Of a stretch of 39,358 nucleotides of DNA, positions 1,124 through 36,472 are shown piece after piece. Position numbers and translations under genes: made by a program. The first letter of the stretch is position 1; every line of letters starts with the position of its first letter. The notes under the pieces are model-generated. The model made no database searches. It was not told where the DNA came from and worked only from the letters and a program-made list of their open reading frames with translations. The stretch is from contig WQXH01000017.1 of the NCBI GenBank assembly GCA_009784945.1, positions 1 to 39,358 of the forward strand. The letters are read 5' to 3'. This stretch comes from Coriobacteriia bacterium. Its GTDB lineage: Bacteria; Actinomycetota; Coriobacteriia; Coriobacteriales; UBA8131.

Positions 1124-2341
1124 CTACGGAGTTCTAAACGGGCATCCTGCGTGCCCTTCAAAGAAACATGCGCACTGTCCAAGCACAAGAGCCCTACAAC
1201 CATAGCAGCCATGTAAAAAATCACACCCTGCACAGGGCGCATTGACATTTTCTCCAATTGTTCTGAACCTGTTGAGGTGCCCAGACTGATACCAGGTTTC
1301 AAATAGAGAGTTTGCTTTTTCTCTTATATTCACGTGGCTACAAGGCCGGTAATAGCCCTGCGAATCAAGAGCTAAAAACCTACGCCCTGCTCCGCAGCCA
1401 GACATATAGCTTGTTTGATTGTTTAAATAACAGAGTAGGCTGGCATAAGCAGAGTCAAGTCTGATGCGCAGCTTTCGTGCACTTCTTGCGCTCCTAATCA
1501 TCTTAGCCAGCCTCAGCTCATCCTTAGGCAAAAGATAATTCTCTTCATACGCCTCACCTGAAGAATGCTTATACCGCAAAATATTGACATTGCCAACTCT
1601 AAAGCTTTCAGCTAGCTGCAAGAGCTTTGGGAAATCATCAAGGTTGTCTCGCCTGGCTACCCAATTAATACCAAAAGACAATTGAGAATCCTTCAACAAC
1701 GCAAGAGCAAAAAGAGCGTGCTCATACCCACCACGCGAGCGAGAGTCTATCTCCTTGCTGGAGCCATTGAGAGAAACCTGCACATGCCTGAGACCACAGC
1801 TCACAAGACTGTCAAGCAATTGCCTGTCAAGGCTGTAGCCGCTGGTAGTAATAGTGGCAACCATGGCACAGGTACTTATTTCCTCAATGAGCTGGTGCAA
1901 GCCAGAATAAAGAAGTGGCTCGCCACCGCCAAGCGCAATTTGAAAGACCTGCATCTGCGCTGCATCTTGAATGACAGACGAGAGCAATGCGACATCTAAC
2001 TCTTGATGCCTCGCTTGCCCCTTGTAACACTGAGAACAATTGAGAGGACAGGCTTCGGTCAGCTCTATATGCAAGCTCTCAGGCGCACAAAAAGAGAATG
2101 GTGGTGCCACCCTGCTTCTCGACAAGGCTATTGCCTCAACAACTGCATGCTTATCCCCGTTGCCGACTATACCAAGCTCCATTACCCTCTCGATAAAAGG
2201 GTTGTTGCCTCCCCTTGCCCACATCTCTAGTAAAGAAAGTTCCTTGCCAGAAAAGAAAGCGGTGCGCGCTTGCTCTGCATTCCAGATGAGCAAGGCATTT
2301 TCTTCTGCTCGGATAATCCTTAGAGCAGTTTGCTTATTCAT
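1124..2341 (-). CDS. Radical SAM/SPASM domain protein, probable peptide-modifying enzyme
   Basis: About 405 residues from the ATG at 2341, which overlaps the upstream stop by 8 bases and suggests translational coupling. The radical SAM Cys motif CxxxCxxC (CPLNCSQC) is at residues 98-105, preceded by HIELTEA. GGGEPLL, the usual SAM-binding GGE motif, follows. The C-terminal part is rich in Cys (SGCGAGRR, YYRPCSH, CAGCDFLHGCYGC), as in SPASM domains that bind extra Fe-S clusters. The first 90 residues look like a small PqqD-like or winged-helix lead-in found in peptide-modifying relatives; that part is inference. Such enzymes modify ribosomal peptides or mature an enzyme partner. The substrate here is unknown. 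A start at 2395 is possible but lies deep in the upstream gene. Confidence 0.85.
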   Translation of the reverse strand: MNKQTALRIIRAEENALLIWNAEQARTAFFSGKELSLLEMWARGGNNPFIERVMELGIVGNGDKHAVVEAIALSRSRVAPPFSFCAPESLHIELTEACPLNCSQCYKGQARHQELDVALLSSVIQDAAQMQVFQIALGGGEPLLYSGLHQLIEEISTCAMVATITTSGYSLDRQLLDSLVSCGLRHVQVSLNGSSKEIDSRSRGGYEHALFALALLKDSQLSFGINWVARRDNLDDFPKLLQLAESFRVGNVNILRYKHSSGEAYEENYLLPKDELRLAKMIRSARSARKLRIRLDSAYASLLCYLNNQTSYMSGCGAGRRFLALDSQGYYRPCSHVNIREKANSLFETWYQSGHLNRFRTIGENVNAPCAGCDFLHGCYGCRALVLGQCACFFEGHAGCPFRTP

Positions 2342-3572
2342 TGCGCCATTCGTAGACCTGCGGTTTGACAAACTCCAGCTGACCACTCTCGGCATACTCC
2401 AGCAAGCTGAGCAGATAGCCCTTCATTTCAGAACGAACCCTGAGTTCGCAAGTAGGCTTGTTGTCGATTAACGCAAAGGCAATGTATCCTGGGTATAGCC
2501 AGTCCTTTCTGTACCAGGTCTGCCTCTCCTCGTATGGAGCAATCTCATCTAATCTGGCCTCAAGCGCTGCGACTATCTCTGGATTGTTCTCATAAAGCTC
2601 TGGAGGCGGCAGTGCAATAATAGCAGCCGTTTCAAAAATCTGCTCAACCGTCTCCAGCTCTAGAGAAAGAGTCAGGTCTACGAGCTCCAGATAGCTACTA
2701 AAGGGTAGCTCCTCTTCTGGTGGCGCACTCCAATGCTCACGAGATGCCTGAAGAAATAACCCGCTCTTTGATAGTCGCGATGTCCATCCCTTTTCGTAAT
2801 ATGATACTGAGGAGCGTACAATGCCGTAGTCCATTAGCCACTTCAAGCTATGCTTTACGCTGTGTTTAACGGGTAACTGTATTTTTTCATAGGCGTAGAG
2901 CGAGCTTCCAAAAGTTGCTCCACAGGAGCACTCTGCTCCACCCCAAATCCTTATACTGGGAAACCGCTCCTCCAGGTACTTGATAATGTATCTGGTGTAT
3001 TCATAGTTTGAGCTGACTGGTATTCCTAAAGTTACCCAGGTGTCACCCTTCTTAACTGGCGTGGAGAGTGAGATATTGTAGCTATAGGCAGCACCTTCGT
3101 TGAGGCAAGGCTCCCTGTGGCGCAAATCACCCTCTTTGACTACTCTTTCCAGCGTCAAATCTACGGTCATAAAAGCCACTTTGCTGGCAGGCTCTGTGCA
3201 GCAGCTTTGAGCAGTTTGATAACCCTTTTCGAGAGGAGCTCTCTCCTTACTTAAGCAATAGAGCTCTGACTGAAGCGCTGTGCTCAACTGTTCTGGATAT
3301 TTGCAGTATGCCATAACGCCGATTAAGGGATAGCTCCCAGAGTATAGTTGCTCTTCAAACTCTGCCTTGCTCAATCTTTTTTCTGGCTCTACGTGCCCTC
3401 TGTTATATGACATGGGTGGCAGTGTATTGTAGACAGGTTTGCGCTTTTCACAAAATAGCGGGATTGCCAAAAAGCTCTCTACAAGATCTCTCACCTGAAT
3501 GCTCTCGGGCACAATAATGTCAAAACTTGTGTCCGAGCCATCTATCTCATAGCCATCCCAATAAAAAAACAT
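2334..3572 (-). CDS. Protein of unknown family, co-transcribed with the radical SAM gene
   Basis: 412 residues, ATG at 3572 preceded by AAGGGGC. I do not recognise the family. It is soluble, with no signal peptide or membrane segment. It carries several scattered Cys residues (LYCLS, QSCCTEP, GGAECSCGATFG), many aromatic residues, and an acidic helical C-terminal half ending in EWRNE. The stop overlaps the start of the radical SAM gene by 8 bases, so the two are very likely made together. By context it could be a substrate, a partner, or the protein whose maturation needs the radical SAM enzyme. The function is not assigned. Confidence 0.75.
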   Translation of the reverse strand: MFFYWDGYEIDGSDTSFDIIVPESIQVRDLVESFLAIPLFCEKRKPVYNTLPPMSYNRGHVEPEKRLSKAEFEEQLYSGSYPLIGVMAYCKYPEQLSTALQSELYCLSKERAPLEKGYQTAQSCCTEPASKVAFMTVDLTLERVVKEGDLRHREPCLNEGAAYSYNISLSTPVKKGDTWVTLGIPVSSNYEYTRYIIKYLEERFPSIRIWGGAECSCGATFGSSLYAYEKIQLPVKHSVKHSLKWLMDYGIVRSSVSYYEKGWTSRLSKSGLFLQASREHWSAPPEEELPFSSYLELVDLTLSLELETVEQIFETAAIIALPPPELYENNPEIVAALEARLDEIAPYEERQTWYRKDWLYPGYIAFALIDNKPTCELRVRSEMKGYLLSLLEYAESGQLEFVKPQVYEWRNE

Positions 3573-3794: not shown

Positions 3795-6700
3795 TTGCTT
3801 GATAACGGCAAAAATATCTTCCAAGCTCTTCACCAAAACAAGTGGCTCTATGTTGAATACCTCAACAAGGAGCAAAAGGTCACTCGGTACTGGATAGCCA
3901 TAATAGGCATTAACCTCACCAGAAAAACGCTTGCAGTTGAAGGTTTGCACCTTGGCCAGCACACGGTGGCGCAGTTCAACATCGGCATAGAGAACATTCG
4001 ATCTTCTGCGGTCATTGAGGGGTCTTACCATAAAACCGATCCCCAGCTCATCGCTGATATTCAAAGGAGGGACCACCACTATAAGGCGCTTTTTGGATCG
4101 GTGGCAAACCTTAAGACCCTGAGCTATCTGGAAGATTGCAACCGCTTGGACACTCCTCCCTACTGCAAGGACTTCTCCCTGATAAAACATATAGATGGGG
4201 AGAGCTTCAGCAACAATCGCGTCACCCTGAGCGAGCAGCAATTCAAAGACATTGTTTCGGAGTTCAGAAAGAGCACCACAGAAGACCCTTACAAAGGCCC
4301 GCTGGGTTTCAAGAAGGAAGGAGCGCGTAGCACCCTCCTACAGCAGATTGCCCTGAATGTGCTCAGCCTTCATACCAAAAAGGGACTGTATGTCTTGGCT
4401 TATAAGCCGCTCTACCTCGATGTAAGCAAGAAGCAGCTGGTGGCGGGTCACCTGGCCATCTGCACCGAATTCAAGGTCGGTAACAAAGGAGCGTGGGAGG
4501 AACAGAGAATTCAGCAGTATCTCGACAACGATTGTTTGGAGCTGCTGAGAGAGTTTGAGCAAAACGCCGAGACCATAAAAGACAGGATAGCAGAGCACCC
4601 GAGTGCGCCGAGCATAGACGATCGACCCTACCTAATGAGTATCTGTTTTGACAGCATCATCGATCTTAAGACAGAGTATGCAGGAATAAGCCTGCTCTAT
4701 GAAAATGATACCGTGTCGGTTCCCCTTAAGGCCTTTTTTGGAGAGCTTGTTTCCAGGCCAGAAAAGCGCAAAGAGTACGACATCGTTATGCTGGATAAGA
4801 AGGCCGATCTTGATCAGATTCTCGCCATTAATAAGGCTATCAAATACCCTCTTGCCTATATCCAAGGTCCGCCAGGTACGGGTAAGACTTCGACCATCAT
4901 CAACACTATCATCAATGCCTTCTTTTATGAGCGCACCGTGCTCTTTGCCTCCAATAATAATCATCCGATTAACGGTGTATTTACGAGCCTCGGTAGGCTT
5001 AAGTATCGCAACTTCAGTATTCCTTTTCCAGTGGTGCGCCTGGGGAGCAGCCGTGTGCAGAACCAAGCACTCGACTATATGAGAGCTCTACATGAAAAGG
5101 TTGAAAGTACCCCCATTTATGAAGCCACACTCAAAAAGAAGAAGAAGGCTGAGTCGCAAAAGGCGCGGCAGCTTACCGAGCTGCTAGCCCGCTACGAAGA
5201 GCGCCTCGAGTTGCTTGAACGCCGTGAGTGCATCGAGAGGCTTTTAGAGTCCAGCGGTAGCTTGCACTTTACCGCCGAGCTTGAGGCCAGGCAACTCAAA
5301 AAGATCGAGGAAGGCTTGCAAAGGATTGGTCAGATTCAACATGAAGAAGCGCTTTCTCTTCTGCCCAACGATACTGACGCTCTCTCCATGTTTCTCCACT
5401 ACTCTTCTGCGCTGCATCTCAAGCGGCTAAGCGAGCCCAAGTACAAGGAGCTCCTGGAGATTGCTTATGACACCAAGAGTGCCCCTGGCGAGAGGGCTGC
5501 ATTATTTAACCGCTACCTTGCGGATTCCAATAACTTGAGAAACTTCCTGAGGGTGTTTCCGATTGTCATTACCACCTGTATTTCGGCGCGACGGCTTGGT
5601 GAGCCCAAGCCCTCCTTTGACATGGTCATTCTTGATGAGGCCAGTCAGTGCAACATTGCCACTGCCCTTGTGCCCATTGTCAGGGGCTCAAGTCTCATGC
5701 TGGTAGGAGATCCCCAACAGCTTAACCCTGTCATAAACCTTGACCCGCTCGCGAGCGAGAAGCTTCGACGCAACTACCAGGTGGCTGAGCGCTATGACTA
5801 CTGCAGCAATTCCATTTATAAGGCCTTTCTTGCGAGCGATTCGGTAAGCGATGAGATACTGCTCAGTCATCACTATCGCTCGGATGAGCGCATCATCAAC
5901 TTTAACAATAAAAAGTATTACAACGGCAAGCTCAAGATTAGGACAAAGCCAAGCGAGGCTCCGCCGCTCCAGTACTACAACGTCTCGCTAGACCAAAGCG
6001 ATGTGCGCAATACTGCCCCTGGAGAGGTCTCTGCCATCATCGACTACATCAAGCAGCATCCTGATGAGAAGATAGGCATTATTACTCCCTTTACTAACCA
6101 GCGAGAGCTGATTCATCTGGCCTTAGCGACAGAGAGCATTACGAGTGTGGCCTGCGGCACGGTGCACTCTTTTCAAGGTGATGAGCAAGACACCATCCTT
6201 TTTTCTACGGGGCTTGCTGCCAAAACTTCTGCCAGAACCTATGCGTGGCTGGCTTCAAACAGAGAGTTGATAAATGTAGCCACCTCAAGAGCCAAGAAAA
6301 GGTTGGTGATTCTGAGTAATAAACAAAACCTCAAGCGGCTGCATGCTGGCGTTGAGGGCACTGACGACCTCTATGAGCTCATTGAATATGTGGCAACTCA
6401 AGGCGAGTCCAGAATTACCAAGCTTGATAGCGCCTCTCGTGCGCTTGGCATTAAGCCCTATAGCACACAGATCGAAAACGCCTTCCTTGAAAGCCTTGAC
6501 CATGCGTTGGGTAATCTATTTGTTTCTGGCGCTAAATTTGCTGTACACAAAGAGGTGCCTATATCGCAGGTGTTCCAAGAGAACCTCGCCTGCCTGCATC
6601 TCTTTTACACAGGCAGATTTGACTTTGTGATTTACGAACGCACCTCCCCCGTTAAGGAGATTCCTGTATTAGCTATAGAGCTTGATGGCAAGGAGCACTA

Positions 6701-6848
6701 TGAAGAGGAAGAGGTCAAGCGTCGCGATAGAGAAAAGCAGGCAATCTGTTCCAAGCACAAGCTCACCTTGATTCGCGTGGATAACTCCTATGCTCGCCGG
6801 TACAACTGCATTAAGAACATCCTCAGCGATTACTTCAAAAGAAGGTAG
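3795..6848 (+). CDS. SF1 (Upf1-like) helicase with N-terminal WYL-like region and C-terminal DUF2726/VSR-like nuclease
   Basis: 1017 residues. The first 60 residues (NKWLYVEYLNKEQKVTRYW) resemble a WYL-type fold. Walker A GPPGTGKT is at about 358-365, and DEASQ (about 614-618) is the Upf1-like Walker B. GDPQQLNP, HYRSDERIINF, VHSFQGDEQD and ATSRAKKRL are the later helicase motifs. A charged helical insert (about 440-520) follows motif Ia. The C-terminal part holds ELDGKEHYEEEE (962 onward), KRRDREKQ and LIRVD, typical of DUF2726/VSR-like PD-(D/E)xK nucleases. The start is TTG with AAGGA ten bases upstream; no other start occurs after the in-frame stop at 3747. The gene stands alone and is likely a single-gene nucleic-acid defence or repair effector, as inferred for similar fusions. 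Confidence 0.85.
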   Translation: MLDNGKNIFQALHQNKWLYVEYLNKEQKVTRYWIAIIGINLTRKTLAVEGLHLGQHTVAQFNIGIENIRSSAVIEGSYHKTDPQLIADIQRRDHHYKALFGSVANLKTLSYLEDCNRLDTPPYCKDFSLIKHIDGESFSNNRVTLSEQQFKDIVSEFRKSTTEDPYKGPLGFKKEGARSTLLQQIALNVLSLHTKKGLYVLAYKPLYLDVSKKQLVAGHLAICTEFKVGNKGAWEEQRIQQYLDNDCLELLREFEQNAETIKDRIAEHPSAPSIDDRPYLMSICFDSIIDLKTEYAGISLLYENDTVSVPLKAFFGELVSRPEKRKEYDIVMLDKKADLDQILAINKAIKYPLAYIQGPPGTGKTSTIINTIINAFFYERTVLFASNNNHPINGVFTSLGRLKYRNFSIPFPVVRLGSSRVQNQALDYMRALHEKVESTPIYEATLKKKKKAESQKARQLTELLARYEERLELLERRECIERLLESSGSLHFTAELEARQLKKIEEGLQRIGQIQHEEALSLLPNDTDALSMFLHYSSALHLKRLSEPKYKELLEIAYDTKSAPGERAALFNRYLADSNNLRNFLRVFPIVITTCISARRLGEPKPSFDMVILDEASQCNIATALVPIVRGSSLMLVGDPQQLNPVINLDPLASEKLRRNYQVAERYDYCSNSIYKAFLASDSVSDEILLSHHYRSDERIINFNNKKYYNGKLKIRTKPSEAPPLQYYNVSLDQSDVRNTAPGEVSAIIDYIKQHPDEKIGIITPFTNQRELIHLALATESITSVACGTVHSFQGDEQDTILFSTGLAAKTSARTYAWLASNRELINVATSRAKKRLVILSNKQNLKRLHAGVEGTDDLYELIEYVATQGESRITKLDSASRALGIKPYSTQIENAFLESLDHALGNLFVSGAKFAVHKEVPISQVFQENLACLHLFYTGRFDFVIYERTSPVKEIPVLAIELDGKEHYEEEEVKRRDREKQAICSKHKLTLIRVDNSYARRYNCIKNILSDYFKRR

Positions 6849-7733: not shown

Positions 7734-8015
7734 CTAAGAAGTAAAGCGGTAGACCTTGCTTCGATGACCAAGCTTTATTACTTCAATGATAAGCTTGCCA
7801 TCATCTATTACTGCGAGTATGCGATAGCTGCCAACGCGATAGCTCCACTCCCCCGAGTGCTCCCCAGATAGAGCCTTTCCGTGTGCACGTGGGTTTACGC
7901 AATCTGCGAGATTCTTGTTTATCCACCCAAGAACTATCTCCCTTTGCGTGCTATCCATCTTTCTCAATACCTTGAGCGCTTGGTCAGAGTATCTCACCTT
8001 ATACTTTGCTTTCAC
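7734..8015 (-). CDS. RelE/ParE-family toxin
   Basis: 93 residues with the compact RelE/ParE pattern: KVRYSDQALKVLRKMD at the start, a basic helix, then WSYRVGSYRILAVIDD and VIKLGHRSKVYR at the end. RelE relatives are ribosome-dependent mRNA interferases and ParE relatives poison gyrase; sequence alone does not settle which this is. The basic Arg/His residues in the last strand favour RelE-like activity. It overlaps the antitoxin gene by 4 bases (ATGA). Confidence 0.85.
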   Translation of the reverse strand: MKAKYKVRYSDQALKVLRKMDSTQREIVLGWINKNLADCVNPRAHGKALSGEHSGEWSYRVGSYRILAVIDDGKLIIEVIKLGHRSKVYRFTS

Positions 8016-8236
8016 GCTAAGCCAAATTCTTTCATAACATCCTCATGAGCATGAGTAATGGGGTTTTGATCATGTTGAGCCTTTGCAGCCCTCAAGTCTC
8101 TCAAATCATATCTGTCTTCAAGCATCTCAAAAAATGCAGTTCTCATTGCATCAGCAGTCGTTCTGCGCTCTTCAGCAGCATATTCCTGTGCAAGAATCAT
8201 CTCTTCATCGGTGAGCCTGATAGTAACCGCCTTCAT
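8012..8236 (-). CDS. Ribbon-helix-helix antitoxin of the RelE/ParE-type pair
   Basis: 74 residues. It begins MKAVTIRLTDEEMILAQEYA, a ribbon-helix-helix DNA-binding start, with a toxin-binding tail (THAHEDVMKEFGLA). A GGAGGG ribosome site precedes the ATG. It is first in the operon, so it should bind and neutralise the toxin and repress its own promoter. Confidence 0.85.
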   Translation of the reverse strand: MKAVTIRLTDEEMILAQEYAAEERRTTADAMRTAFFEMLEDRYDLRDLRAAKAQHDQNPITHAHEDVMKEFGLA

Positions 8237-8673: not shown

Positions 8674-9063
8674 CTAATTCCTAGGAAGATAGTGCACACG
8701 CGCTGAGTAGTCTCTCAGCCGATCATCGGATGTTAAAAAGCGCATGTCCTCTGCTATGGCTTGTGAAATCATGATTCTATCAAATGGGTCTCTGTGGAGA
8801 TCCTTCAGCCTCTGAACTCCATAGATGTGCCTCGTAGCAATATCGATTTTTCTTACTCCGCTGGTCGCTAGCTTACCTTCAAATTCTTCAATTGGTTCGC
8901 CAAGCTCAATTTTGTTGACCATGGTTTTTATGACCAGCTCCCACATACTGGCAGAACTATAATACCTTTCGTTCTCGGCATCATTGAAGAAGATGAGCAT
9001 CTCCTCTGTAGCCGTTCCAAACGAAATTAACACGAGTATATTTGTGTCAAATAGGATTTTCAT
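8674..9063 (-). CDS. vapC: PIN-domain ribonuclease toxin (VapC)
   Basis: 129 residues from the ATG at 9063. PIN-domain acidic residues are visible: FDTN near the start, MWELV, DPFDR and TSDDR, which would bind the metal used to cut RNA. The length fits VapC. It overlaps the antitoxin gene by 17 bases. A TTG four codons upstream is less likely. Confidence 0.9.
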   Translation of the reverse strand: MKILFDTNILVLISFGTATEEMLIFFNDAENERYYSSASMWELVIKTMVNKIELGEPIEEFEGKLATSGVRKIDIATRHIYGVQRLKDLHRDPFDRIMISQAIAEDMRFLTSDDRLRDYSARVHYLPRN

Positions 9064-9289
9064 CGGGCACCCCAAAGAACATGTCAGTCACATCCGTTGT
9101 GTCAAAATTATCAGCTATCCAGCCCTTCTTTGCGAGATGACCAACAAATAATTCGCTGCTTGTAATTGGAGCGAGCTTGACGAGAGGCTGATTCCTCTTT
9201 GCAATAATTATTGCCTCACCATTGAGCGCCCTATCTATCAGCGAAGAAAGTCGTGCTTTTGCGTCATAGACATTGACTATTTCTGACAT
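9047..9289 (-). CDS. vapB: Phd/YefM-type antitoxin (VapB role)
   Basis: 80 residues beginning MSEIVNVYDAKARLSSLIDRAL, the Phd/YefM pattern, followed by GEAIIIAKRNQPLVKL. The C-terminal part ends DMFFGVPDENPI and should cover the PIN toxin. GGGAGG precedes the ATG. Confidence 0.88.
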   Translation of the reverse strand: MSEIVNVYDAKARLSSLIDRALNGEAIIIAKRNQPLVKLAPITSSELFVGHLAKKGWIADNFDTTDVTDMFFGVPDENPI

Positions 9290-10358: not shown

Positions 10359-11654
10359 TCACGACACGCTGGCTCCTTGACACCTACTTTTGACACCCTT
10401 TCGAAGACGCTTCTTAGCAAGTAGCATGACCGAGGCGCCCAGGAATGCACAGGCAAGCAGCGCTGCCGCAGTTGCATGACCAGTGTCTCCAGTTTGGGGT
10501 ATGTCGCTCGGCTTACCTGGAGGTGGATTTGTATTGCTATTGTTAGCGCCTGAGTTGTTATCGTCTCCGCTTGGCGGTGCAACCACACTGTTCAAAACCC
10601 AGACGTAGGCAGATTCACCACCCTCGGGATCATGGTAACTGTATTGTAAATACCCTTCTCTATGGGAATCCGCATCATGCTGATCTGATTGCTTTTTCTC
10701 ATAAACCTCCATTACCCCTACCAAGGGTGGTGATATTGGTGGTATTGGAGCTGTCGCAGAGACATCATCAGGGGGAGCTCGAAGGCCGTCAGGTAAAGGC
10801 GGCACGGACCCTGGCACAGGTGAGGGACCAAGACTCCATAGCCATCGGAAAAAACCAATATAGTCAGCAGCGACTATACTCCCGTTGATTGTTGCTTGAG
10901 ATCCAAGAGTAGCAAGAACACCAAACACTTCTGCCTTATCGTTAGCATGATTAACAGCAATGCTTTTGCCAACGAATAACTGAGATAAACCCACAATGCG
11001 CGCGCCGCAAACCCAAAGTCTATGCTCTGGATCAGTTTGAGCCAATGTGATGTCGCCGGCAATAGTCACATGAGAGTCTTGAGCGCCAATGCCCAGTATG
11101 GCATATGCACCCATAACATTGATATTACCCTCAACGGCTACAGTACTCTCATATGCTATCAGCCCAGTACGGCTAGCCGTTATATTTCCTGTGAGTGATA
11201 CTGTCCCGCCAACAACATATATACCATCTGCTTTTGCCTTAATGTTGCCTACGATGACCACTTCGGGTCCACGATCGCCAGAGCCATAGCGATCTATTCT
11301 AACTCCGTCGTAGTCAGCAGTAATATCACCAGTAATAGCAACTGACGCGGCATTGTAGACCAGCAAACCATCGGCACCTGAGCCACTGACAAAGCTGGCC
11401 TCAGCTAAAAAGGTGGCTGTTCCATAGATCGCCAACTTGATATAGTCGCTCACCGTGCCGCCGCCGAGTATGGAGAGCTCGCCTTCCACATCGATCCATC
11501 CACCCTCTAGCGCCCAGTCAAAGTCTTTGAGGTCTAGGCAAAGGGGACGGGGCTCGCGTCCCAAACAAGCGTAAAATGGGACAGCAGCCCCGTCCCCCCA
11601 AGCTGCGTCCCCATCGTCCCCTTGTACCTCTTTTCTTGAGGATTTAATTGCCAT
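10359..11654 (-). pseudogene. Surface protein with IPQTGD sortase motif, 5' truncated at a repeat
   Basis: From about 11535 leftwards the frame matches the intact protein at 34961-36472: DFDWALEGG, GELSILGGGTVS, then repeated GNI/GDI beta units, a Pro-rich region, and SDIPQTGDTG with a hydrophobic helix and KKRLRK tail. The intact protein has about 125 extra N-terminal residues with a signal peptide. Here they are gone. The frame continues through the repeat at 11540-11624 into MAIKSSRKEVQ, which has no export signal, so the product could not be anchored. It is a decayed paralogue, formerly a sortase substrate exposed at the surface. Confidence 0.85.
11540..11624. repeat. GGGGACGGGGCT...AGCCCCGTCCCC repeat at the truncation point
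   Basis: The left end AAAGGGGACGGGGCT and the right end TGGGACAGCAGCCCCGTCCCC are inverted around a short spacer with GTCCCA and TGGGAC facing each other. Similarity to the intact surface protein gene stops at its left edge. Confidence 0.8.
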
Positions 11655-16541: not shown

Positions 16542-17885
16542 TTATGCAGCTGATTGGAGCATTATAGAGACGGATTTGGCGCTCCTAGCCCCAGCAAATT
16601 CCATAGTCATCTGGTCACCGAGCAGTCTCGCCAGAATATCGTTTTCTAAAGAGCGCAGCTTCAGGTAGGTTTGCGTTAAGAAATTCCCGCTCCCGCAGGC
16701 AGGATCCAGTATGGTCAGCGACGCAATACGCTCCCCTGCAGCGCACGCAGCGCTCCCTTATTCTCCCCTGCTTTTTGAAACTCTAACCGCAGCTCATTCA
16801 AGAACAGCGGGTCTATGACTTTGTGGATGTTTTCGACACTGGTGTAGTGCATTCCGCCTGCGCGGCGCTCGTCGCCAGAGAGTATCGACTCAAAGATGGA
16901 GCCAAAGATGACGGGGCTGATCTCTGTCCAGTTGAACTCGTAGCCCGCCTTTTGCAGCATCTGGTACTTGATGTCGTTGGTAAAGATGGGCACTTCTATC
17001 TCGCCTTCAAAGAGGCCGCCGTTGACATAGGGGAACTGCGCAAGCGTCTTGCCCAGATAGGCGCTGCGCTGGTCCTCGGGGGTATTGAGTACGCCAAAGA
17101 GCTTGATGAGTGCGTCTCTAAACACGCCCTCTCCTGCGGGAATCTCCTTGAGATAGTTGTAGAAGAGGTTCTTTTCAAAGAAACCGCTGTCTTCTGCGTA
17201 GAAGCAAAAGAGGATGCGCACCATGAGGACGGCGAGATTATGGCGAGAGGCCTCAGGGTCGTGATACTGGTGGCGGATTGATTCATAGACCTCGCCGATG
17301 AGGCGGGCGGCTTCGAGGTTCAGCTGCTTTTGGCGAGCGATTCTTTGGTTGACGGGGTCTACGATGAAGCTGAAAACCTGGAGCTGGCTGGGCAGCTCTG
17401 GGAGCAAGACCGAGATGGGGCTCTCGCCGTTGGGGTCGGTGCGGCGGTCGTAGATGAGGAACTCCTCAAAGTTTGAGACGATGATGAAGTTGGGGGCGTC
17501 GCTCGTGGGCAGGTAGGCGGCGTAGCGTAGTGCCTGCTCGTAGGGGGTGAGCGCCTGGCCGTCTGACTGCTGTGCTGGTTTGCGCAGGTCGATGCCGCGG
17601 GTCTTTTGCTCGATGAGCACCTTGGCAGGTGGGGATGTAGCCGTCTACTCACTTGGTGGACTTGCCTACCTTGACCTTCTTTTGGTAGTCGATGACGTGG
17701 TGGACGCGCTCGATTCCCATAACTTCTTGGAGAAACTGGTTCCATAAGGTCTCAACATGCTCGTCTTCTTGGCCGCGGCCGTGCCACTCCTCAGCAAAGC
17801 GCTCGGCTGCCAGAGCTTTGCTGGCGGAGGATGCGGAGGACGCTGGGGGTCTGGTGGGTGTGGGTGGACTCGCGGGCGTTTTCAT
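16542..17885 (-). pseudogene. MmeI-like class I DNA methyltransferase (type IIG/IIL restriction enzyme), multiply broken and truncated
   Basis: The N-terminal frame (17885-17649) gives RFAEEWHGRGQEDEHVETLWNQFLQEVMG and KKVKVGKSTK, then a TGA where VDGYIPT continues. A frameshift follows, and the main frame (ending 16715) reads VLIEQKTRGIDLRKP, QSDGQALTPYEQALRYA, FIIVSNFEEFLIYD and GGMHYTSVENIHKVIDPLFL. A further shift near 16740 puts the SAM motif DPACGSGNFLTQTYLKLRSLEN in another frame, ending at a TAA at 16542. The NPPY catalytic motif and target recognition domain are missing. The gene once overlapped the YhcG gene by 4 bases. It cannot make an active enzyme. Confidence 0.85.
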
Positions 17886-34960: not shown

Positions 34961-36472
34961 TTAGTGCTTGGAACACTCCTTGCGTTGGCGTGTTTTGGCG
35001 AGAATCATGGCTGAGGCGCCCAAGGCTGCAAAGAGAAGTAATGTTGCTGCGGTTGCAAAACCAGTGTCTCCGGTTTGGGGTATGTCGCTGGGTTTGTTTG
35101 GTGGTGGGTTGGTGGAGTTGTTGCTATTGTCGGGTGATGGTGGAGGTGCAATCAAGGGTGCAAAAACCCAGACGTATGAAGTGCCCGGGATATCTGGCGT
35201 GTCATAGCTATATTGGAGATATCCCTCTTTGAGAGACTGAGGATCGAAATCAGAAGGCTTGACGACTTTAAAATCAAAAGTCAGCGCGAGGTCAAAAGCA
35301 GAGTCAGGAGGGGCAGGAGGGTCAAGAGAAAGGCCGGGCAGACCCCAGTCCCAAAACCCAATATAGTTTTTGGCAGTAATACCTCCATTGATAGTTGCCT
35401 GTGATCCAGGCCAAACAGCAACACCATAACAGTGTGTGTCTAAGTCGGCATCGAGCGTAATGCTACCATTAACAGCTACCTCAGAGTTACCCTGAGAAGC
35501 AACTCCTGCCGCCCAAAGGGCTCGTTGAGGCAAAGAGATATCTCCTTGTACTAACACCTTTGAACCGCCTCCTGCATAGACACCCGCTATATGAGGTCCA
35601 GCGCCTGACCACACGACGATAATGTTTGCGGATGCGTTTACTGTGCAACCTTGGTCAACGTAAACTCCAAACCGTCCTGCTGAGATGCTGCCAAACAGTG
35701 CAATAGTTGCACCAGTCGCACAGATACCATCAGCTCGCGCAGTAATATTGCCCGTAATATCTATTGATGCGTTATTGCCTTTAACTGCCACTCCCTGGCC
35801 ACTTGACGAGATGTTTCCAGTCACAGTGACCGATGCTTCTCCGTTGGCCGTTATGGCATCTCCGACAAAGTCTGCGTCATTTTGTAGATTGGCTTGAGCG
35901 GTCAGGCTGCCGCCGTCAACCAAAAGCTCATCGTAACCACTCGGTATAATGACATCTACAACAAAGTCTGCGCCATATTTAAAATTGGCATGAGCGGTCA
36001 GACTGCCGTCGTCAACCAAAAGCTCATCGTAACCACTCACTGTGCCGCCACCAAGGATGGAGAGCTCGCCGAGCACCGTGATGCTTCCACCATCAAGCGC
36101 CCAGTCAAAGCCTTTGAGGTCTATGGTAAGCTCTTCGCCAGCAGCAACCTCAAGGTTGACTTTTTCCTCAAGATTGCCGAGCAAGTAGATGCCATCGCCA
36201 CTGTTGACAGCAGCGAGAGCCTCAGCAAGGCTTGCATAACCAACGTCAAGCGCATCGCCATCAACGTACACAGCGCACACATCTCCCTCGCCTGGCGGAG
36301 TATCGGCAAATGCCTTGGCTCCACCAGCAAGCAAAAGACTTGCTGTGAGCAGTAGTACACTAAGAGTCAGTAGAAGCCTCTTTAACAATAATAGCTTGCC
36401 TTGATCGTTTCCAGAACTCTTTTCAGCACACATAACAGTTGCACTTGAGGCTTGTCCATGTAAACTAAACAT
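34961..36472 (-). CDS. Sortase-anchored surface protein (IPQTGD), intact paralogue
   Basis: 503 residues, ATG at 36472 with AAAGGA. A long signal peptide has the hydrophobic core LLLTLSVLLLTASLLLAGG and AKAFA-DT at the cleavage region. The body is built of short beta repeats (GNI, GDI, GSI units) as in beta-helix surface proteins, after LTIDLKGFDWALDGG. It ends with a Pro/Asn linker, SDIPQTGDTG, a hydrophobic helix and RQRKECSKH, the sorting signal. It should be covalently anchored to the wall by a sortase not in this window. Inside is a 32-residue tandem duplication. Confidence 0.9.
   Translation of the reverse strand: MFSLHGQASSATVMCAEKSSGNDQGKLLLLKRLLLTLSVLLLTASLLLAGGAKAFADTPPGEGDVCAVYVDGDALDVGYASLAEALAAVNSGDGIYLLGNLEEKVNLEVAAGEELTIDLKGFDWALDGGSITVLGELSILGGGTVSGYDELLVDDGSLTAHANFKYGADFVVDVIIPSGYDELLVDGGSLTAQANLQNDADFVGDAITANGEASVTVTGNISSSGQGVAVKGNNASIDITGNITARADGICATGATIALFGSISAGRFGVYVDQGCTVNASANIIVVWSGAGPHIAGVYAGGGSKVLVQGDISLPQRALWAAGVASQGNSEVAVNGSITLDADLDTHCYGVAVWPGSQATINGGITAKNYIGFWDWGLPGLSLDPPAPPDSAFDLALTFDFKVVKPSDFDPQSLKEGYLQYSYDTPDIPGTSYVWVFAPLIAPPPSPDNSNNSTNPPPNKPSDIPQTGDTGFATAATLLLFAALGASAMILAKTRQRKECSKH
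35846..36037. repeat. 96-bp tandem duplication inside the surface protein gene
   Basis: Two units 96 bases apart encode SGYDELLVDDGSLTAHANF and SGYDELLVDGGSLTAQANL. The frame is kept. Confidence 0.9.

Follow-up and report, generated by a model that had tools for sequence, protein, structure and literature searches.

Organisation of the locus

The window, i.e. the whole stretch of 39,358 nucleotides analysed here (contig WQXH01000017.1 of a Coriobacteriia bacterium), carries near its beginning two overlapping genes on the reverse strand. The upstream gene (2334-3572) encodes a protein of 412 residues, the putative substrate and hereafter the partner. The downstream gene (1124-2341) encodes a radical SAM/SPASM enzyme of 405 residues (Pfam Radical_SAM, 1.3e-16) with full-length relatives at the loci L059-L067, L069-L071 and L073. 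The longest open reading frame of the enzyme starts at 2395 and has 423 codons, and we set the start at the internal ATG at 2341 because the alignments of homologues begin there. With this start, the stop of the partner gene and the start of the enzyme gene overlap by exactly 8 bases (2334-2341, reverse strand, ATGAATAA). An overlap of 8 bases is also found in the homologous pair of a Tannerellaceae genome (L060) and overlaps of 1-4 bases in several Chloroflexota loci, which suggests that the genes are translationally coupled. The first-pass annotation had proposed such an overlapping pair, and both open reading frames are indeed present. The partner frame is not a chance one, since homologues with 21-37% identity accompany this enzyme in further phyla.

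Immediately downstream of the enzyme, at 1000-1100, lies a perfect inverted repeat with arms of 49 nt and a loop of 3 nt, a candidate REP-like element or terminator. Its core (TTGACAGGGGGACG) has 7 copies in the window for 0.02 expected, allowing up to 1 mismatch. Divergent from the partner gene, a forward-strand gene (3795-6848) encodes an SF1-type helicase of 1017 residues (AAA_11/AAA_12) with a C-terminal DUF2726, similar to several PADLOC defence helicases. Further along, all on the reverse strand, we found two small gene pairs that look, by sequence alone, like toxin-antitoxin modules (7734-8236 and 8674-9289: RelE/ParE-like with a partner, and PIN-like with a Phd/YefM-like partner) and the 301-residue N-terminal part of an apparently truncated type IIG (MmeI-like) restriction-methylation enzyme (16715-17620). 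Two similar proteins ending in IPQTGDTG sorting signals (10359-11654 and 34961-36472, reverse strand) are probably anchored to the cell wall as surface proteins.

Domains of the enzyme

The enzyme is a member of the radical SAM superfamily: it scores 61.7 bits against the Pfam Radical_SAM gathering score of 29.5, and its core (residues 92-243; 1613-2068, reverse strand) has the CX3CX2C motif as CPLNCSQC at residues 98-105. The C-terminal region (1142-1396, reverse strand) is SPASM-like, with cysteines at residues 316, 334, 370, 373, 379, 382 and 400. The Pfam SPASM model matches 13 of 15 members of the enzyme family and stays below its cut-off for the window enzyme. The arrangement CX12GX4C ... 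CX2CX5CX2C ... C is kept in all 15 aligned members. The published SPASM pattern is CX9-15GX4C ... CX2CX5CX3C ... C (PMC6231123), so that the middle spacing is one residue short of the textbook one in 15/15 members.

An additional N-terminal domain (residues 1-88; 2078-2341, reverse strand) is present throughout the family. When the family profile is compared with SuiB (5v1q), positions 2-400 are aligned, the region of this domain included. RRE domains occupy the equivalent N-terminal position in SuiB, CteB and SkfB (PMC6231123), and the domain is possibly RRE-like. Searched alone, it gave no significant PqqD or RRE match. Among structures in the PDB, the family profile matched PqqE (2.6e-34), SuiB (4.6e-21) and anSME (8e-17).

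Conservation of the gene pair

Among 33 genomes of the family to which the window belongs and 400 genomes of its class, the window copy of the partner is the only one. The enzymes related to ours in the class have at most 30% identity, and those examined have no adjoining partner. Hence, horizontal acquisition of the module is probable. A first scan of genome contigs for the partner also returned the window copy only, and no copy was found in plasmids, phages or viral contigs. We then relied on the enzyme, and used a motif-weighted alignment of it (A2) to scan about 85,000 species genomes; the extra rows of A2 are artificial and served solely for choosing the search patterns. The closer relatives were reached with this alignment only. 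They have 27-51% identity and belong to Bacillota, Bacteroidota, Chloroflexota and Asgard archaea: 51% in a Clostridiales Family XIII MAG (L059), 47% in a Tannerellaceae MAG (L060), 40% in Anaerobacterium chartisolvens (L061), and 27-33% in Chloroflexota and two Asgard archaea. In the enzyme tree, built by a quick method and with unsure deeper forks, the window groups with L059 (SH-aLRT 98) within a clade of six from Bacillota, Bacteroidota and the window (SH-aLRT 99).

Since the scan used the enzyme only, the genes next to the enzymes it found are independent evidence. A partner homologue adjoins the enzyme in 13 of the 14 bacterial loci (L059-L064 and L067-L074). Those at L059, L060 and L061 have 34%, 34% and 27% identity with the window partner, and ten Chloroflexota enzymes adjoin a protein of about 270 residues whose first 40 residues match it. 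The gene pair is thus widely, if sparsely, conserved. Of the two outcomes that would have spoken against the first-pass proposal, a pair confined to this genome and a partner of a known family with an unrelated role, neither was seen. The exception is the Sericytochromatia locus L068 (4505-7023), where an enzyme relative (31% identity) overlaps by 4 bases the gene of a 401-residue protein that seems to start with a signal peptide and lacks the N-terminal motif described below; this may be a related system in which another partner is used.

We found no other neighbouring gene shared across loci beyond closely related genomes, and no protease or transporter gene conserved alongside the pair. Within 1.5 kb of 16 modules there was no conserved short open reading frame, apart from the synteny between L067 and L069. 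Hence, the suggestion that both proteins act on a missing peptide gains no support, and the short precursor peptide that would mark a RiPP biosynthetic cluster was not seen beside the enzyme. At L061, the module lies among genes that resemble, by sequence alone, RtcB, stomatin-like, macro-domain, ADP-ribosylglycohydrolase and KptA genes.

Partners share an N-terminal tag

The partner had been described as unrecognised, and it still is: the 412-residue protein has no match in Pfam, NCBIfam, PADLOC or the sequences of the PDB. Profile comparison splits the partners into three sub-families: A (380-412 residues), which includes the window partner and those of L059, L060, L061, L143 and L144; B (about 270 residues); and C (about 170-200 residues), from Asgard archaea. 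They can be aligned solely over 12-41 N-terminal residues. A and B match at residues 3-43 only (3444-3566 in the window, reverse strand; hhalign probability 95%, E 3.4e-8), which is the module in common with the Chloroflexota partners, A and C at residues 4-15 only, and B and C at residues 2-38 only.

What all partners have in common is the core W-x-G-[YF]-E-I-D-[SG]-S, hereafter the tag. In the window it reads WDGYEIDGS (W5-S13, codons at 3534-3560, reverse strand), and in the 15 partners first aligned W5, G7, E9, I10, D11 and S13 (window numbering) are invariant. The tag is the most conserved stretch of 12 residues in every sub-family, with a conservation of 0.90 in A (0.38 overall), 0.98 in B (0.65 overall) and 0.83 in C (0.44 overall). 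The cysteines of the partner, noted at first pass, turn out to be less informative. The window partner does contain 9 of them, but the invariant tag has none, and the alignments of all three sub-families have no cysteine column in common.

We modelled the structure of the partner, as had been suggested. The model made from the single sequence was useless (pLDDT 32), and the one made with 6 homologues reached a mean pLDDT of 57 and a pTM of 0.56; a fold search with it against the PDB gave no match at E<=0.001. It places strands, with low confidence, at residues 2-5, 8-11 and 15-20. The first 13 residues have a pLDDT below 50, which fits a flexible tail but may also result from too little variation in so small an alignment.

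The tag predicts the partner

We searched genomes with a degenerate DNA pattern for W-x-G-[YF]-E-I-D, using reversed patterns as a control. It was run on 18 genomes encoding the enzyme or a relative, and matched 15 of them. In 14 of these there was exactly one match, the partner, and the Heimdallarchaeote G423 had four. In the window's own genome, the partner is the one match. The reversed patterns gave 0 matches throughout, the window's genome included. Relaxing the motif revealed no tagged protein in G424, G426, G433 or G680.

The tag was then searched blind to the enzyme. In the class Anaerolineae, 9 of 249 genomes matched and 9/9 tagged proteins lie directly beside the enzyme, a pairing counted from the tag side only, i.e. 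among tag-positive genomes. In the class Clostridia there were matches in 4 of 321 genomes, three of them N-terminal tags beside the enzyme. The fourth is internal to a PAP2-like protein and we regard it as a chance match, as we do the match in the Asgard-order genome G709. Across 36 genomes of the Asgard orders the co-occurrence of tag and enzyme is looser than in bacteria: G685 has a tagged protein and no enzyme was found there, while G424 has an enzyme and no tagged protein, also when one mismatch is allowed. Both cases could be due to incomplete assemblies.

In G423, the four tagged proteins (about 170-200 residues) are spread over three contigs, and there is one full-length enzyme. Such numbers would be expected if a single enzyme served several targets, and they agree better with tagged proteins that are substrates than with a subunit in fixed proportion. 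Three of the four tagged proteins adjoin large proteins with HEAT repeats, and one of these large proteins has BRCT domains as well. The tagged protein nearest to the enzyme lies beyond a HEAT-repeat gene of 1157 codons, on the opposite strand. At L125 (178-7141) and L127 (3-5011), tagged proteins lie beside HEAT-repeat proteins of 1157 and 1159 residues, which are 23% identical in the part that can be compared, and a protein of 724 residues with HEAT repeats and BRCT domains is also found near tagged proteins at these loci.

Comparison with known SPASM systems

PqqE, an enzyme of pyrroloquinoline quinone (PQQ) biosynthesis, is the best match of the enzyme in both NCBIfam and the PDB. Like our enzyme it has a radical SAM core and SPASM-type cysteines, and it modifies a ribosomal product. 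The enzyme is nonetheless not PqqE: it scores 124 bits with TIGR02109, under the cut-off of 381, and no pqqA, pqqD or other pqq gene was recognised among its neighbours. It also differs by its extra N-terminal domain and by a partner that is a protein of 180-412 residues and not a short peptide. SuiB, which makes the Lys-Trp cross-link of streptide, resembles the enzyme in that the profile alignment spans the N-terminal region, and the tag holds a Trp. However, the substrate of SuiB is a short precursor peptide, and its cross-link partners, Lys and Trp, are not both present in the tag. The mycofactocin maturase MftC and the GeoRSP maturase are further SPASM enzymes among the best NCBIfam matches, and an mftC is among the plasmid matches of the enzyme, but the scores are far under the cut-offs (91.6 for 265 and 102.8 for 400, respectively) and the partners differ. 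The anaerobic sulfatase-maturating enzymes (anSME) offer a parallel for a SPASM enzyme acting at a short motif of a full-size protein, as would be the case here if the partner is modified. They form formylglycine at an internal CxPxR-type motif, whereas the tag is N-terminal and lacks Cys.

SPASM enzymes cross-link Trp in streptide and Glu and Tyr in PQQ, and residue types of this sort abound in the tag. The conserved Cys acceptor of sactipeptide and ranthipeptide substrates was not found in the partners. A thioether of the sactionine type is unlikely because the tag has no Cys and the Cys of the partner are not its conserved feature. Position 8 is Tyr or Phe, and therefore a reaction dependent on the Tyr hydroxyl is also unlikely.

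A putative maturation module

We give a probability of about 0.5 to the reading that the pair forms a self-contained two-gene maturation module, with an enzyme that binds to the N-terminal tag of its partner and probably modifies it. The partner would be made first and the translationally coupled enzyme second. The enzyme would recognise W-x-G-[YF]-E-I-D-[SG]-S, perhaps via its N-terminal domain, and the 5'-deoxyadenosyl radical, with the auxiliary clusters of the SPASM region as electron acceptors, would lead to a modification in or beside the tag. The likeliest change would be a cross-link (C-C or C-O) or oxidation involving residues from the set Trp5, Tyr/Phe8, Glu9, Asp11 and Ser13. The mature N-terminus might then be a common functional group or cofactor carried by structurally diverse proteins. 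Of the options raised at first pass for a small maturation system, modification of the partner is the better supported, because the tag is the sole feature common to all partners and because one archaeon has four proteins with the motif. We also count in favour of the partner as substrate that PqqE and SuiB, the nearest solved relatives of the enzyme, modify peptides, that the pairing emerges both from the enzyme search and from the tag search, and that neither a third gene nor a short open reading frame is conserved at the loci. Against the maturation module we count G424, G685 and L068, where either the tag or the enzyme was not found, and the failure of the RRE assignment when the domain is searched alone. 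Substrates of about 190-410 residues are large for SPASM peptide maturases; sulfatases are large too.

Alternatively, the tag could serve for docking or have a structural role. The partner might be an obligate accessory subunit or second enzyme, docked via the tag and acting jointly with the enzyme on a small molecule or an unlinked substrate. A conserved interface would likewise keep the N-terminus invariant, stoichiometric partners typically have overlapping genes, and the bodies of 180-412 residues look like folded domains, in line with the moderate pTM of the window model. We find this rather unlikely, since three unrelated-looking bodies behind one tag would be odd for a subunit with a single job, G423 has four paralogues for one full-length enzyme, and there is no conserved third gene or short open reading frame. 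RiPP precursors, too, have a conserved N-terminus with a diverse body behind it, and the N-terminal domain of the enzyme is placed like an RRE. The partner could then be a giant precursor, the tag its enzyme-binding leader, and the modification would lie in the variable body. This we judge improbable: the bodies are long and domain-like, no feature of them recurs across sub-families as a common site, no protease or transporter gene accompanies the pair, and the RRE match of the domain alone is not significant. It is more doubtful still that the motif is a structural element, such as a conserved beta-hairpin, of an ancient family, with the genes linked by a pathway and without mutual action. 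The low-confidence strands of the model would agree with a hairpin, but a structural element seldom stays invariant in a protein that has otherwise diverged beyond alignment, and the N-terminal tag occurs almost exclusively beside this enzyme.

In a broader and more tentative extension of the maturation module, on which we would not quite bet, the tag would mark a hitherto undescribed post-translational modification system of bacteria and Asgard archaea. A dedicated SPASM-type enzyme would introduce the cross-link or cofactor into the tag of otherwise unrelated proteins, and could have several targets per cell. The enzyme itself belongs to a known class; what appears to be new is the target family, the tag and their pairing, and we found no paper with the motif strings or such a pair in a literature search outside which most subscription papers lie. 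Few radical SAM/SPASM enzymes have a protein-sized rather than a peptide-sized partner, and their targets are usually found singly. In the present case the target is predicted straight from a short invariant motif, both in bacteria and in archaea and for a family absent from Pfam and NCBIfam. If the partner is indeed the substrate, as we infer, this would add a new modification together with a sequence rule for locating its targets.
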